From Tyzzerella sp. (lineage in GTDB: Bacteria; Bacillota; Clostridia; Lachnospirales; Lachnospiraceae), in contig JAFTWA010000005.1 of assembly GCA_017465565.1 (NCBI GenBank), positions 1 to 64,000 on the forward strand: a stretch of DNA of 64,000 bases. The letters run 5' to 3'. The notes beneath the pieces are model-generated. The model searched no databases. It was given only the letters and a program-made list of their open reading frames with translations, and had not been told where the DNA came from. Numbering within the stretch: the first letter of the stretch is position 1; the number at the start of each line of letters is the position of its first letter. This document shows, piece by piece, positions 56,244 to 63,801 of this stretch. The translations under genes were made by a program, and so were the position numbers.

Positions 56244-57116
56244 TCACTCACCTTCCGGCACTTCAGGCTGTCCTTGAGATTCAGCATCTGTAACAGTTGG
56301 CGAAGCACTTTCTGTATCATCGGTAGTCGTATCTGTAGATTCAGTTGTTGTGTCTGTAGATTCGGATTCTTCTGTTGTATTTTCCTCTTCGGTTTCTGAT
56401 TCTATCTCTCCCTCAGTCTCAGTTTCCGTTTCTGTTTTGGTCTCTGTGTCTGTCCCAATTCCCTCAGTACCACCTGCATTTGGTTGCACCTGTTCCGTAT
56501 TTTCACTCTCGTCCTGCGGAGCATCATTATTCTTATCGTCGCCCGAGGTACTTGGAATATTTCCATCTGGCGTAGTTGAATGAACTATGGTGGTCTTATC
56601 ACCCACACCATAAAGTTCTTCTTGATTAACAGCATAATTAGCAGACGTTCCCCACTGTGGAATAAATGTAATCACACATCCTTCAGCTGCCTGAATTGTT
56701 AAAGTGAGTTCTGTAAGGCGATCAGTATTTTCCCCAGCCTCTTTGAAAATTTGTGTAGTATAATAAATCTTCTTCTCTGTTCCATTAGAGATTTCGATTT
56801 TGCAGTAGCCAGTTTCTGCTGTGCCGTTAGGAGTAAATGTAAAGGTATGTAAATCGTCTGTTACCTCTTTACAAGTATAGGCACCTGTCACGACTGCATC
56901 ACTACTATCTTTTATCTCTAACGAATATTGAGCCGATTGAATTGTATTTAAATCGGAGGAAACACTACAGGTAAAGTAGGCATAAGCCGTATAACTCATG
57001 GCTGTTAAACATAGCACCATGAAAATGACTGAAACAGCAATACGCGCTATCATCACTTTTTCACGAATTTTGCCATCTTCTGAAATATAGAAGAATTCAT
57101 TAAAAAGTGTCTTCAT
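56244..57116 (-). CDS. SipW-dependent TasA-like protein with acidic Thr/Glu-rich tail
   Basis: A 290-residue exported protein. After a cytoplasmic N-part (about 1-22) and a hydrophobic helix (24-46) comes the AYAYFT motif typical of SipW-processed precursors. A beta-sandwich-like domain (about 50-175) follows. The last ~110 residues are Asp/Glu/Ser/Thr/Gln-rich low complexity (repeats such as TETETETE and STDTTTEST), probably an extended stalk. There is no sortase signal. The start follows AAAGGAGG. The unusually long cytoplasmic N-terminus differs from its paralogues. It is the last intact gene of the operon. Confidence 0.75.
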   Translation of the reverse strand: MKTLFNEFFYISEDGKIREKVMIARIAVSVIFMVLCLTAMSYTAYAYFTCSVSSDLNTIQSAQYSLEIKDSSDAVVTGAYTCKEVTDDLHTFTFTPNGTAETGYCKIEISNGTEKKIYYTTQIFKEAGENTDRLTELTLTIQAAEGCVITFIPQWGTSANYAVNQEELYGVGDKTTIVHSTTPDGNIPSTSGDDKNNDAPQDESENTEQVQPNAGGTEGIGTDTETKTETETETEGEIESETEEENTTEESESTDTTTESTDTTTDDTESASPTVTDAESQGQPEVPEGE

Positions 57117-57144
57117 GCAGTTGTCCTCCTTTCCAGTTAATCTT

Positions 57145-57792
57145 TTATTGCTTTCCTTGTTGCTCGGCACTTACAATCAATCCGAGTTCCACTCTCGGAA
57201 TATCTGTGCCACGGTAATTCGCCACATTACCAACCTCTTCTGGCATGCGGACGATAAGTGCCATATATATTTCATCCTTTGCTTCAAGAGATGCCGTCTC
57301 TGTTGAATAATTGTTGAGTGGCATAGCTGCGTTTTCTTTTGCTAGTTCTCTATTCGCAAGTTTCTGTTCCAGTTCTTCCTCTGTATCCGCAACTACAAGA
57401 CCAAATTTTAAATAATCTTGTAAATTGAAGGTCCGTCCAAACACGTTGGTTGCAATCGTGTAGTCGGTAACGCTGACCGCTGTTTTATAATCAAAAGGAA
57501 CCGTTCCTCTATTTTCAACCTTCAAATACACAACCTGCACATACCCTGGTTCGTAGAGTGCTTTGTCGTCAAACACCTGTGTTTTTGCATCGATTTCTTT
57601 GTATGTACCATCATCTAGTCGGTGTGATACGACTAAATCAAACTCTGCTACGTGGAAGATATTTTTTACTTCAGACGAAGTATCTGTAAACCAGGCAATG
57701 GACGCCCCAGTCCCTAGGATTCCCCAAAGAATCAGCAGGCATACACTAAGGGCCAAAGCGATTTTTTTCAGTTGTTCTTTTTTCAGTTTCAC
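57145..57792 (-). CDS. SipW-dependent TasA/camelysin-like protein
   Basis: A 215-residue exported protein. A basic N-terminus, a helix (11-32) and the processing region GASIAWFTDTSSEVKNIFHVAEFDLVV mark it as SipW-dependent. The domain shows LYEPGYVQVVYLKVENRGTVPFDYKTAVSV, the strand pattern also seen in TasA (a W/L-EPG-x-x-x-x-x-xVxN motif shared with its paralogue at 59182). It probably forms or caps extracellular fibres. GGAGG precedes the ATG. Confidence 0.78.
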   Translation of the reverse strand: MKLKKEQLKKIALALSVCLLILWGILGTGASIAWFTDTSSEVKNIFHVAEFDLVVSHRLDDGTYKEIDAKTQVFDDKALYEPGYVQVVYLKVENRGTVPFDYKTAVSVTDYTIATNVFGRTFNLQDYLKFGLVVADTEEELEQKLANRELAKENAAMPLNNYSTETASLEAKDEIYMALIVRMPEEVGNVANYRGTDIPRVELGLIVSAEQQGKQ

Positions 57793-57825: not shown

Positions 57826-58476
57826 TTATTTCTGCTTTTTTCTGCGCAAAAATAATAAGATGAGAATTACGGCAGCTGCACAAACTGCCAGAGCAATCAT
57901 GAATGCAGGATTTTCATCATCGCCAGTCTGTGGCGGCTTTGGGTCATCATCTTCTATTGGAAATTCTTCCACCATAAACTCCCAGTCCAGATAGCCAACT
58001 TGGCTGCTATATTCATTATCCAGTTCTACTGGCACATCTAAAGTCACGTTAAGATTAACCTCGCCACCTGAATAAAGTGTGCCAAGGCAAACCCAGTCCG
58101 TGAGTTGTGCTGTCTCATTAGCGGCGGCGTCAAACATATATGCCATACTGTTATCTTCGGACTTTTCTACATGAAGCCCCAGTTGTGATAGGAATTCAAC
58201 TGAATCCTCATGTGCTCCAAGGGAACGCATATAGATTTTGACCTTCACTTTTTTAGATGCCTCGTTTTTCACAGTAATTTTCTGTGTGAGACTGTCTCCA
58301 GGCATAATGTCCTTGAAATTGGGAAACAAATCTGTCAGAGAATACTCGCTTCCCGGTTGAAAAATAAAATCTCCTGCGTCGCCTTTATAGGTCACTTTTC
58401 CGTCTGCTGCACAAACCGTCAGAACAGTAGAAAAAGTCAAAATCAGTGTAATCATTAAAGCTGTAATCTTCTTCAT
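57826..58476 (-). CDS. Sortase-signal surface protein of the fibre operon
   Basis: A 216-residue protein with a conventional signal peptide (MKKITALMITLILTFSTVLTVCAA, cleavage after Ala). A beta-rich domain of about 140 residues contains IMPGDSLTQKITVKNEASKKVKVKIYMRS. The end is PPQTG (about 181-185), a hydrophobic helix and RRKKQK, a variant LPxTG sorting signal. Unlike its neighbours it lacks the AWF-type SipW motif, so it is likely the cell-wall anchor or base subunit. AGGAGG precedes the start chosen. No sortase gene is in the window. Confidence 0.82.
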   Translation of the reverse strand: MKKITALMITLILTFSTVLTVCAADGKVTYKGDAGDFIFQPGSEYSLTDLFPNFKDIMPGDSLTQKITVKNEASKKVKVKIYMRSLGAHEDSVEFLSQLGLHVEKSEDNSMAYMFDAAANETAQLTDWVCLGTLYSGGEVNLNVTLDVPVELDNEYSSQVGYLDWEFMVEEFPIEDDDPKPPQTGDDENPAFMIALAVCAAAVILILLFLRRKKQK

Positions 58477-58486
58477 ATGGCACCTC

Positions 58487-59050
58487 CTATTCCTTTGGCC
58501 AGCCAGAAGCTGTGAATGTATCTGTGCCATCAATCGGATTATTTTCACTCTGTACAGCATGGGCTACCACAGATAAAGTAAGTGTCTTACCCAGATAACT
58601 GTTATCCACTTTGGAACCTACAATTTCCACATGAGAGAACACATTCGGTGTAGTCTCTCCAGGCTCTACAGTGCCCTTGTAGTAATACCAGCCGTCGTGA
58701 AGTTCCCAATGTTCTTCATTGATATTTAGCTTGAAACAATCCTCTGCAGATAGTTCCTGCGAATCTACACCGTAAACGATTTTCACACGCAGATAAAACG
58801 GATGGTCGCAATCACTTTCAATGCTGACCTCCTTGCTGACAATATCACCTGGAACGATGTAAACGCCCTCTGCTGGAAATTCAGTTCCCTGGTCGGTTCT
58901 TTCATGAATGATGAATTGAATATTGCCGGAGGTCACAACATTGGTGGCTTTACCGACAGTTGAATAATAGGCAAGGGTGCCTTGGGTAAAAAATGTGGCA
59001 ACGATAGCAAATAATGCAATTGTCATAAATTTAAGTTTTATCTTTCCCAA
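58487..59050 (-). CDS. SipW-dependent TasA/camelysin-like protein
   Basis: A 187-residue exported protein. N-terminal helix (8-28), then GTLAYYSTVGKATNVVTSGNIQFIIHE, matching SipW substrates (YYST in place of AWFTD). The domain has VYIVPGDIVSKEVSIESDCDHPFYLRVKI and TVEPGETTPNVFSHVEIVG, the expected beta-sandwich with a PGD turn. It starts 10 bases upstream of nothing else on this strand and ends 10 bases before the sortase-signal protein, implying tight coupling. Closely similar in plan to the other subunits. Confidence 0.78.
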   Translation of the reverse strand: MGKIKLKFMTIALFAIVATFFTQGTLAYYSTVGKATNVVTSGNIQFIIHERTDQGTEFPAEGVYIVPGDIVSKEVSIESDCDHPFYLRVKIVYGVDSQELSAEDCFKLNINEEHWELHDGWYYYKGTVEPGETTPNVFSHVEIVGSKVDNSYLGKTLTLSVVAHAVQSENNPIDGTDTFTASGWPKE

Positions 59051-59181: not shown

Positions 59182-60372
59182 TTATTCAGAAACAACAACG
59201 ATGTAATCATCACCATTTTCATTGAAAGCAACACCATCAAATGTGCCACCGTTAATAGTTATATTAGCACTACCTTCTTGCATAATATATTCTGGTTCAT
59301 AGTTATCTTTTGTTTCTTTTTCTTTGATCAAATTACCATCATTGATAACGACTGTCGGATCTTGTGCATCGGCATAATAATCATATGCATAAACACCTAC
59401 AGAAGCAGTAATTGTACCGCCGTTCATAACAAAATTGCCGTTAAATAAGGTTACACCATGGTCATAATCACCATTACCACGAACAATAATGTTACCACTA
59501 TTCATTACAAAGGTTGCATTCTGTTTAACGTACACGCCATAGCAAGAAGAAACAAGCTTACCAGTTTTGTCTGCACTGCTGTCTTCTAATGTGAAATGAG
59601 CATTATCACTCACATAAATAGCCATCCAGTGGCCTTGTCCACCATCATTAGATGTAAGAGTATAACCATTCAGGTCAAGAAGAGTAGCAGTACTTGCAGG
59701 AATATCAAATCTCTCATTGTCTGCAGCTGTAATGTCAGCGGCGAGAACAATATCCCCACCCTTAGCAAGAGCATCTCTCAATTCAGCTTCGGTAGAAACT
59801 TCTGTATAGCTTGCAAATTTATCGTACTGATTATCAATACTATCATATTCAGAAGCAAGCTGAGTAGCATTCACAGTTATAGATACACCTTCAAGACTCT
59901 TATTCATATAGTCGTTACCTGCATCTTCATCCATATGACCGGAAATGGTGATAGCATTTGTCTTGGCACCTGCTTTAAGTGTACCCTTAGCACCATTTTC
60001 AATACCACTAAAAGTAAAATCAATAACATTAAGAAGATCAGTATCTCCGGTAAGCCCACTAATAACTACTTCATATTTCAAATCAAGATTACCGTTGTTC
60101 TTAATATAAAATTCCTGTGTCTTATATGTACACCCTGGCTCCCAAAGAATTGTTCCTTCTCCATTTGCTTTCACAAAACTAATAGTGGACAGGTCTTCGT
60201 CATTAGCATCTACGATAGCAATATCAAGATTACCAGCTGTTATTGTGTTCGTTGCGCTGGTTACAGAGTCAGTAAACCATGCGAATGTTGTTCCAATCAA
60301 CATAGACATACACAATACAAGTGATAATAAGCTACTAATCAGTGCACGCTTAGTTGTTTTCTTATTATTCAT
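59182..60372 (-). CDS. SipW-dependent protein with C-terminal beta-helix
   Basis: A 396-residue exported protein. Residues 1-35 give a helix and GTTFAWFTDSVTSATNTITAGNLDIAIVD, the best SipW/TasA-type signal in the set. A TasA-like domain (about 35-180) contains LWEPGCTYKTQEFYIKNNGNLDLKYEVVISG. From about 195 on, short repeated strands (STEAELRDALAKGGDIVLAADI, FTLEDSS, FVMNSGNIIV, FVMNGGTIT, ITINGGTF) indicate a right-handed parallel beta-helix. No wall-anchor motif. It may be a fibre subunit with a binding or decorating tip. Confidence 0.8.
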   Translation of the reverse strand: MNNKKTTKRALISSLLSLVLCMSMLIGTTFAWFTDSVTSATNTITAGNLDIAIVDANDEDLSTISFVKANGEGTILWEPGCTYKTQEFYIKNNGNLDLKYEVVISGLTGDTDLLNVIDFTFSGIENGAKGTLKAGAKTNAITISGHMDEDAGNDYMNKSLEGVSITVNATQLASEYDSIDNQYDKFASYTEVSTEAELRDALAKGGDIVLAADITAADNERFDIPASTATLLDLNGYTLTSNDGGQGHWMAIYVSDNAHFTLEDSSADKTGKLVSSCYGVYVKQNATFVMNSGNIIVRGNGDYDHGVTLFNGNFVMNGGTITASVGVYAYDYYADAQDPTVVINDGNLIKEKETKDNYEPEYIMQEGSANITINGGTFDGVAFNENGDDYIVVVSE

Positions 60373-60455: not shown

Positions 60456-61154
60456 TTAGTCCTCGTCAACAAACGCTGCGCCATTACCCCAGTTAACATA
60501 CGCAAATGCCTCAACTGCATTGTCCCCAGTATTATCTCTTTGCACTGCATCTGCTGATACAGTAATATTAAATTCATTATTAATTGCAGCCATTTCTAAC
60601 TGAGTAAACTCTGTAGGAATGTTTACATTCGTAAATAGAACTTCATCACTACCTGCTGGAAGTTCTCTATTGAGATAGAGATACCATGTAGCCTTGTCAT
60701 CATTAACAGTAACTTTGTCTTCTACAAGAAGCCATTTACTTGTTGTGTCAGTGCCAACATTTGAAACCAAACCATAACTAGAACCCTCAAACAAATCTGT
60801 AAATGCGAGAGAACCGCCTGCTGTTTCCCAGCCGCCTGCCTTATCTAATGTTACTGTCACGCGAATCCACTGTGTATAATCTCCAGTATTTGTGATTGTA
60901 GGATTCTTAGCAATATCATCACCCGGTATTACGTTATAGTATGTAACACCATCTGTGGTCTCCTTACCTTCAAGGTCTGTTTCTGATACCTTCACTGAAA
61001 ATTCAGGATTTGTATCATCTTCGCTATTAGCAACCTTGAATTTATTGGTAATGCTCTTTGTGTCATTGAACCAAGCCAATGTTCCCAAAGAAAGAATAGC
61101 GATTAAACTAATTGCTAACGCTGAAACAAATACTTTCTTCTTCGTGAATTTCAT
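60456..61154 (-). CDS. SipW-dependent TasA-like fibre protein
   Basis: A 232-residue exported protein. Basic N-terminus, helix (8-26), and SLGTLAWFNDTKSITNKFKVAN, the SipW recognition and cleavage region. The domain includes YNVIPGDDIAKNPTITNTGDYTQWIRVTVTL, resembling TasA/camelysin, and AFAYVNWGNGAAF near the end. It is the first substrate gene after the two peptidases, and is the likeliest major fibre subunit. AAGGAGG supports the start; an upstream in-frame ATG at 61217 lacks one. Confidence 0.82.
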   Translation of the reverse strand: MKFTKKKVFVSALAISLIAILSLGTLAWFNDTKSITNKFKVANSEDDTNPEFSVKVSETDLEGKETTDGVTYYNVIPGDDIAKNPTITNTGDYTQWIRVTVTLDKAGGWETAGGSLAFTDLFEGSSYGLVSNVGTDTTSKWLLVEDKVTVNDDKATWYLYLNRELPAGSDEVLFTNVNIPTEFTQLEMAAINNEFNITVSADAVQRDNTGDNAVEAFAYVNWGNGAAFVDED

Positions 61155-61237
61155 TTCGTTTTCCTCCTTTCCCGAAATATTTATTTCAAACTCGTGCTTA
61201 TTGGAATTCCTTAACAAACACGAATCTAAAACCGTAG

Positions 61238-61747
61238 TTATTCATTTTCATCTTTCTTCTTTTTACCCACCATGTCTGGCAAAAATACTGCAATGATAAG
61301 TATCAATCCGACCCCTACCGTAATATAAGTGCCCGGCGGATTTTGAATGAAATCGGATACATAACCAAGCATCGGAATACTAAACTTCGGCACTCCGATT
61401 ACATTATTAAAATGTACTGGTGATGAATCTGCCGTTTCATTTGCATCCCCTTTGGTGTAGAAATGTTGATTTTCAGCGTCAATCTCTACCACCCGGTGAG
61501 TTGCAACAACTAGATCTTCATTTAGTACAAAAGTAATCGGGTCACCAACCTTGATGCTGTTTACATCCACTTCTTTTACATAAATAAGGTCGCCTACGCT
61601 GTACTCTGGTTCCATACTTCCAGAAATTACGTTGAATACGCGGAAGCCCATAAGTCTTGAGCCCATAAGGAAAACTGCACATAGAACAATCAGTACGACT
61701 AACACAGTAGAAACAATATTCCACACTTTTTTTAATGTTTTCTGCAT
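61238..61747 (-). CDS. SipW-type signal peptidase I (second copy)
   Basis: A 169-residue membrane peptidase. N-terminal helix (10-30), catalytic Ser44 in VISGSMEPEYSVGDLIYV, and His84 in VATHRVVEID replacing the usual bacterial Lys, which puts it in the ER/SipW class. The domain is followed by VIGVPKFSIPMLGYVSDF and a C-terminal helix with a lysine-rich cytoplasmic end. It probably cleaves the AWFT-type precursors encoded downstream. It starts four bases after the first peptidase gene. AAGGGG is the ribosome site. Confidence 0.85.
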   Translation of the reverse strand: MQKTLKKVWNIVSTVLVVLIVLCAVFLMGSRLMGFRVFNVISGSMEPEYSVGDLIYVKEVDVNSIKVGDPITFVLNEDLVVATHRVVEIDAENQHFYTKGDANETADSSPVHFNNVIGVPKFSIPMLGYVSDFIQNPPGTYITVGVGLILIIAVFLPDMVGKKKKDENE

Positions 61748-61751
61748 ATGT

Positions 61752-62477
61752 TCACACCCCTTGCTGCTCCGCTTTTTCTGTTTCTGACACAGACTTATCT
61801 GCATCTACAGCAGCTTTATTTTCAAGCTGCGCCTTGAGGGCTTGCAATTCTGCCATCATCTTGGCACTTTCTGCTCTCTCAGCCTCAATCTTTGCCTTTT
61901 CAGCTTCCATTTCCTCCATCTGCTCTTTCTTATAGCGACGGAACAAGTGGATACAATTGATTCCCTGATAGAGAATCAAAAGCATAAACGGAACAAAGAT
62001 ACAAACGATGTACCCCTGCGGCGTCTTTAGGAAATTAAAGAATGTCCCAACTTTTGGAATGCTGTGCTCATATTTCCCTAAAATGTAAGGATATGTAACG
62101 ACAGTTTCATCATCGGTATCAGTTGTTGTACCGTAAGTGATAAATCCTGGATTACCCTCTGCATCGGTTGTCAGTCTTCTGATTTTATGGGTGATTGTCT
62201 CGCCAAAACTCTCCGTGTTCTGAGACATATATGTAATGATGTCGCCCTCTTTTAATGTAGAAGGGTCTACCTCTTTTACCAAAATAAGGTCGCCTGCGTT
62301 AAAGTCCGTCTTGCTCATGGAATCAGAGTTGACAATATAAACTCTGTAACCAAACAGGTTGCGGTCATTACGGTTAAATGTTGTAACCGAAATAATCGTA
62401 AATATCATCATAAATACGGCCAGTGCAACCACGAGCCACACAATTGTTGTTTTAATTATGTTTAGTGCCTTCTTCAC
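61752..62477 (-). CDS. SipW-type signal peptidase I with coiled-coil tail
   Basis: A 241-residue membrane peptidase. N-terminal helix (10-33), catalytic Ser53 in VNSDSMSKTDFNAGDLILV, and His97 in TITHKIRRL, again the Ser-His class. A second helix (about 158-180) leads to a cytoplasmic tail of about 55 residues rich in Glu/Ala/Lys/Gln (MEEMEAEKAKIEAERAES...), a probable coiled coil that ordinary SipW lacks. The start codon is GTG with GAGGAAA upstream. It is the first gene of the operon, behind the invertible segment. Confidence 0.82.
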   Translation of the reverse strand: MKKALNIIKTTIVWLVVALAVFMMIFTIISVTTFNRNDRNLFGYRVYIVNSDSMSKTDFNAGDLILVKEVDPSTLKEGDIITYMSQNTESFGETITHKIRRLTTDAEGNPGFITYGTTTDTDDETVVTYPYILGKYEHSIPKVGTFFNFLKTPQGYIVCIFVPFMLLILYQGINCIHLFRRYKKEQMEEMEAEKAKIEAERAESAKMMAELQALKAQLENKAAVDADKSVSETEKAEQQGV

Positions 62478-62534
62478 AGCGTTTCCTCACTTCTACTTAC
62501 TTTTTGATTTGTCAAATCTGTCATTCCAATAACA

Positions 62535-62555
62535 ACAAAATGACTATTATGTTGT
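62535..62555 (+). repeat. Left inverted repeat of the switch
   Basis: Ends in the 17-bp core AATGACTATTATGTTGT (62539-62555), preceded by ACAA. Confidence 0.8.
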
Positions 62556-62601
62556 ATAAATGTGCCAAAATGGAACAATTCGGCACTCTATATTCAGGTT
62601 C

Positions 62602-62630
62602 ACTTTAGCACACTGATACTTAAAATGCAA
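62602..62630 (-). promoter_or_regulatory. Candidate promoter of the fibre operon, inside the switch
   Basis: Minus strand TTGCAT (62625-62630), 17-base spacer, TAAAGT (62602-62607). It points at the peptidase gene about 120 bases away. A weaker alternative is TTGTTC-16-TACAAC closer to the left repeat. Confidence 0.5.
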
Positions 62631-62669
62631 TTGATAAAAGAAAATTTATGATAAAAATTTAACTGGAGG

Positions 62670-62731
62670 CATAACAATAGAGCCTTTTCAAAGGTGATTT
62701 TGAAAAGACTTTTATTGTTATGTCTTTTTTT
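62670..62731 (+). terminator. Terminator-like hairpin inside the switch
   Basis: CATAACAATA pairs with TATTGTTATG and an inner CTTTTCAAA pairs with TTTGAAAAG; TCTTTTTTT follows on the plus strand. In the present orientation it does not face the operon; after inversion it would. Confidence 0.6.
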
Positions 62732-62783
62732 GATGCTGCAATGCTTGCACTCTGGAAATATCAGATTCTTGTTAGTAGCACAC

Positions 62784-62804
62784 ACAACATAATAGTCATT
62801 ATGT
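62784..62804 (-). repeat. Right inverted repeat of the switch
   Basis: On the minus strand it reads ACAT followed by the same 17-bp core as the left repeat; one mismatch over 21 bp. Confidence 0.8.
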
Positions 62805-62839
62805 GATAATCGACCTTTACCTCGTGTATTGGTCTATTT

Positions 62840-63679
62840 TTATATTATCAATCTCATGCTTTCCAATCTTCTCCTATGTTCCGTACCAGTAGAGATAATA
62901 TAAATCCTTGTGGTATTTATATTGCTATGCCCAAGGATATCCGCCAGCTTCGCAATGTCTTTCTCTATTCCATAAAATGTCCTTGCAAATAGATGCCGCA
63001 AATTATGTGGGAATACTTTATCTGGCGATACATCAGCCTGCTTACAAAGTGCTTTCATTTCACGCCATATGTTACTACGATTAAGTGCTTTCCCCGTTTT
63101 CGTAATAAAAATCATCCCTGACTGAATCTTCTGCTTTCTTGCATATTTCAGTAACTTCTTTCGCAAAGCTGATACAATAAAAATTTCCCTTATCTTTCCC
63201 TTGCAACAAACCGTTGCTTCTCCCCTCTGCACTGCTTCTACTGTAATAAACTGCAATTCACTCACCCGAATTCCCGTTCCACAAATAGTTTGTATTACCA
63301 GGGACAGTCTTTCATTTTCTTTACTTTCTGCCGCCTTTATCAAACGTAAATATTCCCCCTTAGACAATTCCTTTTCTTCTGGACAATATGTCTTTTTCTG
63401 TACCTTAAATTGTTTGACGCACAAATCACTCCACCCCACAAATCTCAAAAAAGAATTGAGCGATGCCAGCATGGAATTCGCACTAGTAACAGCATACCCC
63501 TTTTCTAACTCCGATTTATACGCAACTGTCAGTATCTTATCCACATAACGTTCCGATGCATACTCCCAAAAATGCTTAATATCCCTCATATATTTTTCAA
63601 TCGTAGATTTACTTTTTTCATCTTGAATTAGATATTGTTCAAATGCTTCCAACATTGAAAGTGTAATCGTTTTTTCCAT
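62840..63679 (-). CDS. Tyrosine recombinase (XerC/D-like), probable invertase of the switch
   Basis: A 279-residue site-specific recombinase. The N-terminal SAM-like arm/core-binding domain covers about 5-85. Catalytic residues are Arg138 (GTGIRVSEL), Lys160 or Lys162 (CKGKIRE), His225 and Arg228 (HNLRHLF), His251 (LGHSNINTT) and Tyr260. The set is complete, so it should be active. It is encoded upstream of and in the same direction as the fibre operon, with the inverted repeats in between, as for dedicated invertases. GGAGG supports the ATG at 63679 over one five codons earlier. Confidence 0.88.
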   Translation of the reverse strand: MEKTITLSMLEAFEQYLIQDEKSKSTIEKYMRDIKHFWEYASERYVDKILTVAYKSELEKGYAVTSANSMLASLNSFLRFVGWSDLCVKQFKVQKKTYCPEEKELSKGEYLRLIKAAESKENERLSLVIQTICGTGIRVSELQFITVEAVQRGEATVCCKGKIREIFIVSALRKKLLKYARKQKIQSGMIFITKTGKALNRSNIWREMKALCKQADVSPDKVFPHNLRHLFARTFYGIEKDIAKLADILGHSNINTTRIYIISTGTEHRRRLESMRLII

Positions 63680-63767
63680 TTTACTTACCTCCATATATTT
63701 CTACATTTTACAATATCCTTAATTTTTATACGGTTTATTGGTTTGTATTAATCTGCGGGCAAAAAAA

Positions 63768-63792
63768 CAGAGCGAGTTTTCCACCCGCTCTG
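63768..63792 (-). terminator. Terminator of the HipA-like gene remnant
   Basis: CAGAGCG pairs with CGCTCTG with a short interior, followed on the minus strand by seven T. Confidence 0.7.
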
Positions 63793-63801
63793 CGTATTTT
63801 T

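Follow-up and report, generated by a model that had tools for sequence, protein, structure and literature searches.

A probable recombinase-driven DNA-inversion switch at SipW- and BsaA-like surface genes of a Tyzzerella genome, and its relatives

Layout of the locus

The window, which is the whole 64,000-nucleotide stretch analysed, carries a gene for a Xer-like tyrosine recombinase, a short segment bounded by inverted repeats that holds no gene, and then a set of eight genes on the same strand, separated by no more than 131 bp. The features are given below in the order in which they lie, starting upstream of the recombinase gene.

63767-63793, minus strand: terminator-like hairpin upstream of the recombinase gene, from the consensus scan only
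62840-63694, minus strand: Xer-like tyrosine recombinase, 284 aa, with alternative starts downstream; Phage_integrase E 6.4e-25
62784-62804, minus strand: recombinase-proximal inversion site; core ACATAA-TGACTA-TTATGT in the minus-strand reading at 62787-62804
62556-62783, no strand: invertible segment, 228 bp
62665-62731, plus strand: predicted intrinsic-terminator hairpin (stem at about 62665-62725) with a T7 tail (62725-62731), opposed to the promoter
62602-62630, minus strand: candidate operon-facing promoter TTGCAT-17-TGC-TAAAGT; -35 at 62630-62625, -10 at 62607-62602
62535-62555, plus strand: distal inversion site; core ACAAAA-TGACTA-TTATGT at 62535-62552, with one arm mismatch and an identical central word
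61752-62477, minus strand: SipW-like signal peptidase 1, first operon gene; TIGR02228 72.5 bits (cut-off 51.85)
61238-61804, minus strand: SipW-like signal peptidase 2; TIGR02228 110.9 bits (cut-off 51.85)
60456-61217, minus strand: T1, SipW-dependent secreted protein, BsaA/camelysin-like; TIGR04088 25.4 (cut-off 19), Peptidase_M73 20.7 (below 22.5)
59182-60372, minus strand: T2, SipW-dependent secreted protein with a camelysin-like N-terminus; TIGR04088 31.1 (cut-off 19), Peptidase_M73 32.8 (cut-off 22.5)
58487-59050, minus strand: T3, BsaA-like secreted protein; TIGR04090 38.6 bits (below cut-off 60)
57826-58560, minus strand: T4, LPXTG-type wall-anchored protein; TIGR01167 25.8 (cut-off 15.9), Gram_pos_anchor 21.6 (cut-off 20)
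57145-57792, minus strand: T5, possible SipW-dependent secreted protein; TIGR04088 16.9 bits (below cut-off 19)
56244-57170, minus strand: T6, last gene of the set, overlapping T5; no family match

The inverted repeats are as the original prediction described them, being 21 nt long, complementary at 20/21 positions (95%) and separated by 228 nt, and their inverted-repeat score of 18 exceeds the best value (at most 14) in 40 dinucleotide shuffles of positions 61801-63800. The gap between the repeat and the recombinase gene had been put at 36 bases and is actually 35 (62805-62839). The repeat core is dif-like in that two half-sites, ACATAA and TTATGT, surround six central bases, and we take the letters of the arms to resemble those of dif. 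Across the window genome, the core pattern with at most one mismatch occurs at 19 places, 17 of them besides the two in the window, versus 40 places for a backwards control, so that single core-like sites in this genome are at chance level; the sole exact solo core (C34:13752) has no partner inside 3 kb.

The recombinase carries the full set of catalytic residues that had been read from its sequence (R143, K165 or K167, H230, R233, H256 and Y265). It was aligned with XerC-like and XerA structures, its nearest structures are those of Xer enzymes, and it scores below the cut-offs for both XerC (110.2 versus 335.15) and XerD (108.4 versus 329.6). Counting the window's own genome, 2/10 genomes of the genus carry a close copy of the enzyme, and the switch is therefore not a fixed trait of the genus. 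Among the nine other genus genomes (G001-G009) the distribution is patchy, with a close copy only in G004 at 61% identity, where the locus contains SipW-like and T4-like genes too, each at 57%. Four recombinase relatives (L190-L193) lie on large replicons recorded as plasmids of Monoglobus pectinilyticus, Pusillibacter faecalis and Subdoligranulum variabile; consensus-type sites are found in three of the four, and L191 has other letters.

A SipW-type peptidase and SipW-dependent secreted proteins are both present in the gene set, with TIGR02228 matched twice and TIGR04088 matched by T1 and T2. Both peptidases are below the cut-off of the SipW equivalog NF046067 (82.2 and 98.5 versus 190). The products of these genes may form fibres.

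Conserved paired sites and both orientations among relatives

Relatives of the recombinase at E <= 1e-30 are found in 101/397 genomes of the family (Lachnospiraceae). The loci fetched are a part of these matches, namely those with the highest scores plus those from selected multi-copy genomes, and the set from named records comprises the best 80 of 273 loci. For the count of cores, 148/160 loci were kept once 11 duplicates of loci already present and L164 (212 bp downstream) had been taken out, a further 20 loci with less than 450 bp downstream were dropped to leave 128, and sites were picked by their arms alone; near-duplicate recombinase DNA (L077/L080, L116/L117 and L154/L167) is still in this set.

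Conservation of the repeats beside the recombinase gene, set beforehand as a test, is evident in this collection. Two cores of the form ACATAA-N6-TTATGT occur in 103/128 loci with at least 450 bp downstream, and the central six bases are equal in the inverted sense in 101 of these 103, versus a mean of 1.9 and a maximum of 7 with shuffled partners. A first count, in which a few second copies were included and which preceded the addition of loci from multi-copy genomes, had given an inverted pair with equal centres in 89/95 loci with the same downstream length. There are 72 distinct centres across loci, and information per column is 1.8-2.0 bits in the arms and 0.01-0.09 bits in the middle four central columns. 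The first site lies mostly 0-50 bp after the recombinase gene, and the inner segment is mostly 200-280 bp. The 25/128 loci without a full consensus pair have the proximal core only (4), the distal core only (2) or neither (19). Some of these loci have other arms. At L151, L154, L155, L159, L161, L167, L175 and L184, which encode more distant recombinases, different palindromic arms occupy the corresponding position 3' of the gene, for example ACCACAGAAT... and ACCCCATAAT..., and from L151, L155, L175 and L184 it seems that the arms vary along with the enzyme, the centre being free.

The two misfits among the 103 are L116, which has two differing words, and L178, where three plus three sites form an array. 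The two words do match in both close relatives of L116, L115 and L117, and L116 may be a locked or a hybrid switch. In 10/103 loci (L048, L064, L070, L094, L097, L102, L104, L145, L178 and L183) one word occurs at more than two sites; the sites lie at most 700 bp 3' of the recombinase gene, those of L178 being 34 bp apart, and some are direct repeats, which could permit deletions or alternative inversions.

Comparison of segment orientation across other genomes, which the original prediction proposed as a check, reveals both states, the comparison being one between relatives with one genome per species. The inner segments of L097 and L101 are 99% identical with one flipped and 56% unflipped, and those of L077 and L080 are 98% identical with one flipped and 54% unflipped. 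Over 300 bp of the recombinase-side flank both pairs show 95% identity, and the operon-side flanks align poorly (40% for L097/L101 and 66% for L077/L080). Flipped pairs in which both flanks are alike are L086/L138, L051/L163, L115/L116 and L116/L117, with segment identities of 72-79% flipped and 52-54% unflipped; for L086/L138 and L051/L163, both flanks are 78-80% identical and the segment is 72-75% identical when flipped. Overall, 8/31 segment pairs at identities of at least 70% and 28/88 at identities of at least 62% are flipped, and the median identity of random segment pairs is 51%. In a quickly built recombinase tree with 95 rows, from which L146 (stops) and rows without an orientation call other than L002 and L031 were left out, the number of ON/OFF changes is 23 versus a mean of 21.7 (17-24) with shuffled labels, and orientation is thus without phylogenetic signal. 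Profile calls give OFF for the same-genus relative L003 and OFF for L031. Contig ends fall no more than 350 bp from the recombinase gene on its 3' side at 11/80 and 5/30 loci, and on its 5' side at 1/80 and 0/30; such 3' breaks are expected if assemblers meet mixed orientations.

Promoters, terminators and the working of the switch

The letters of the promoter predicted on the minus strand, TTGCAT-17-TAAAGT, are present at the place given for it, and its support comes from position and from the family profile. It carries an extended -10 (TGC ahead of TAAAGT), and the distance from the distal end to the start of its -10 is 73 bp, within the family mode of 69-74 bp. It is not listed by a plain consensus scan, in which 8 promoter-like sites are found versus a shuffle mean of 6.1 (sd 2.3), which is no clear excess, and plain promoter scoring over the whole segment makes no call for the window, as for 21/90 segments. 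A position-aware scan scores it at 12.8 versus 12.3 for the best candidate on the opposite strand, a narrow margin that is marked as undecided and places the window among the 8/102 segments without a call. The segment profile, built from 82 other segments and without the window, then gives ON, with 42.8 bits versus 15.6 for OFF, in agreement with the predicted present orientation. This profile re-finds 80/82 of its own training segments in the called sense, with none contrary and two without a match, which is a consistency check and not independent proof. The promoter of the window is weak and close in score to its opposite-strand rival.

The predicted hairpin with seven T, opposed to the promoter, is borne out on the plus strand with a minimum free energy of -27.7 kcal/mol (z -6.6), and 0/200 shuffles fold equally well; the minus-strand reading of the hairpin has -23.4 and is without a T tail. 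The consensus terminator scan is neutral on this hairpin, which it does not list because it caps stem and loop. The segment in the window has the opposed terminator only and none in the promoter's own sense. The hairpin at 63767-63793 would shield the recombinase gene from upstream transcription.

Promoters and terminators were surveyed in 102 segments, with the array L178 left out, and 94 of these have a called orientation. The better promoter faces the recombinase gene (OFF) in 71/102 segments and the next genes (ON) in 23/102, with no call in 8/102. The commonest distance between the distal end and the -10 start is 69-74 bp, and a TGN before the -10 (73/94) and a 17-bp spacer (91/94) are common, both being features that the promoter score favours. 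A terminator opposed to the promoter is found in 70/94 segments versus 22/94 shuffles, one in the promoter's own sense, upstream of the promoter, in 63/94 versus 15 in shuffles, and terminators in both senses in 47/94.

Anatomy, conservation and the two orientations among relatives point to a site-specific DNA-inversion (phase-variation) switch in the window, driven by a recombinase and flipping the operon promoter, and this reading is very probably correct. The neighbouring recombinase, linked to the inversion sites by association across loci, would be the enzyme that flips the segment, and flipping presumably occurs in this species, with promoter and terminator acting as named. The Xer-like recombinase (62840-63694) would bind the ACATAA/TTATGT arms of the two dif-like cores, and strands would be exchanged over the identical 6-bp centre TGACTA, leading the 228-bp segment to flip. 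In the ON state, presumably the present one, the promoter at 62602-62630 would read through the distal site into the SipW/BsaA-like genes (62477-56244). In the OFF state it would be aimed at the 3' end of the recombinase gene, and the hairpin-T7 terminator would lie in the path of transcription from that gene, where it may stop read-through into the operon, or set the recombinase mRNA as described for fimE (PMC2784873), or both.

The original prediction took this terminator to give a doubly tight OFF state. The opposed terminator on which that idea rests is there in the window and in 70/94 relatives, but a doubly tight OFF is only one reading, as the own-sense terminator in 63/94 segments means that recombinase read-through would often be blocked in both states. 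The terminator might instead serve feedback on the recombinase, whose mRNA would be shortened in OFF and extend further in ON, with a resulting bias of the switch as reported for fimE, and an OFF-facing promoter may add antisense RNA. This is a tentative proposal with a somewhat less than even chance of being right: it gains from the frequency of opposed terminators over shuffles, from the promoter facing the recombinase gene in 71/94 called segments and from the fimE precedent (PMC2784873), yet the own-sense terminators would end recombinase read-through in either state and the OFF majority may stem from assembly or growth state.

Other explanations concern whether the copy in the window is a working switch. 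It is improbable that the family is active and this copy is locked ON by the mismatch in its distal arm (ACAAAA for ACATAA). The mismatch does sit in a conserved arm, though 19/20 other mismatch-free or nearly mismatch-free arm positions are normal, and L116 shows that partner sites can diverge; however, the two central words in the window are identical, relatives with one arm mismatch (e.g., L036 and L140) retain matching centres, and the recombinase is intact. A relic of an integrated element, with an integrase and two attachment sites but no regulatory switch, would fit the phage-integrase/Xer class of the enzyme and its distant relatives in sequence records of phages and plasmids (identity at best 43% and 53.5%). 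Such an origin is nevertheless highly improbable with sites that are inverted rather than direct, geometry, promoter position and terminators that are conserved over many loci, a labile orientation and a segment without a gene.

Known systems, cargo and central words

Elements that combine an invertible promoter and a neighbouring recombinase gene are of a known kind. The E. coli fim switch (fimS with FimB/FimE) resembles the window in having an invertible promoter next to tyrosine recombinase genes and a phase-dependent terminator (PMC2784873); fim has two recombinases and a Rho-dependent terminator, whereas the window has one recombinase and an intrinsic-like terminator, the likeness being one of layout. 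The Clostridioides difficile cwpV switch, with its 21-bp imperfect repeats 195 bp apart, shares with the window the setting in Clostridia, a Xer-class recombinase (RecV) and an intrinsic terminator tied to OFF (PMC2784873). The likeness to RecV that the original prediction drew thus holds for the kind of switch and fails for its arrangement, as in C. difficile the promoter of cwpV is external to the inverted segment and recV is encoded elsewhere, whereas the window has promoter and recombinase in cis. Xer/dif sites likewise have two half-sites around a 6-bp centre (PMC5357621), a layout seen in the window's family from column conservation; this family differs in its paired inverted sites, the same arm on both sides, a free centre, and local inversion rather than dimer resolution. 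The Clostridium perfringens sipW-bsaA operon also combines SipW with BsaA-type filament proteins and is ON or OFF in single cells, but its bimodality needs a two-component system and PilA2 (PMC7395162). The words inversion and recombinase are absent from the text of PMC7395162, and no paper naming an invertible tyrosine-recombinase switch beside SipW was found in the open-access literature.

The hCom2 survey, built on reads of both orientations, describes inverton group 139 with a previously unpublished repeat motif and 33 invertons, of which 32 are in Clostridia and nearly all lie beside a tyrosine-type recombinase of invertase group 35 (PMC11892184). Going by that description, the present family may well be the same as group 139. 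Subject to the motif of group 139, the present analysis adds a rule of invariant arms around a centre that is free yet paired, a set position for the promoter, the terminators and the range of cargo. Phase variation is much less well understood in gut Clostridia than in Bacteroides, and a sequence rule of arms, free centre, fixed promoter distance and terminator would make switches and their state readable in any assembly and would also name the recombinase likely to work each of them. It further ties on/off control to SipW-type surface genes.

A surface-fibre operon had been predicted as the cargo of the switch. The window does have a SipW/BsaA-like surface set, but the cargo of relatives varies and need not be a fibre operon. 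Of 50 loci with at least 3 kb of sequence, 17 have a SipW-like gene no more than 5 kb away, and the first genes at 53 loci include those for SPFH/Band 7 proteins with zinc ribbons (9), TetR-type regulators (8), SipW-like peptidases (5) and collagen-like proteins (2). The SPFH/Band 7 and zinc-ribbon genes are unexpected as phase-switch cargo, with L082, L092 and L112 as examples guessed by gene length.

Tyrosine recombinases require a matching crossover sequence for strand exchange. Since exchange needs matching centres, switches with differing central words in one genome should not recombine together, and all central words differ in 11/13 genomes with several switches. Segments that are close relatives frequently have unlike words (for example L074/L082, L115/L117 and L103/L124), with the two copies inside each switch remaining equal, indicating that both sites change together. 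Clostridia may hold a large natural set of address-coded switches, with one arm specificity, a private 6-bp word per switch, several recombinases and switches per genome without cross-rearrangement, and different cargo; the chances for and against this view are evenly divided, and the central words would be what insulates the switches. If it is true, such switches could drive SipW fibres, SPFH/zinc-ribbon proteins, TetR regulators and collagen-like adhesins separately. The family offers a ready test of whether crossover words keep natural switches apart, and if they do, it would be a source of mutually insulated recombination sites for use in genetic tools in anaerobes.

Selected insulation by address words was considered and rejected, as word sharing within genomes lends it no support: among the 13 genomes with at least two switches, words are shared by 2/35 within-genome pairs versus 5/560 between genomes, and avoidance is not shown. 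Palindromic words number 0/72 versus a mean expectation of 2.8 (P(0) 0.047), which is only suggestive of their avoidance. One of the two within-genome pairs that share a word is in G258, and the other, L146/L148 in G261, has inner segments that are 89% identical and looks like a recent duplication.
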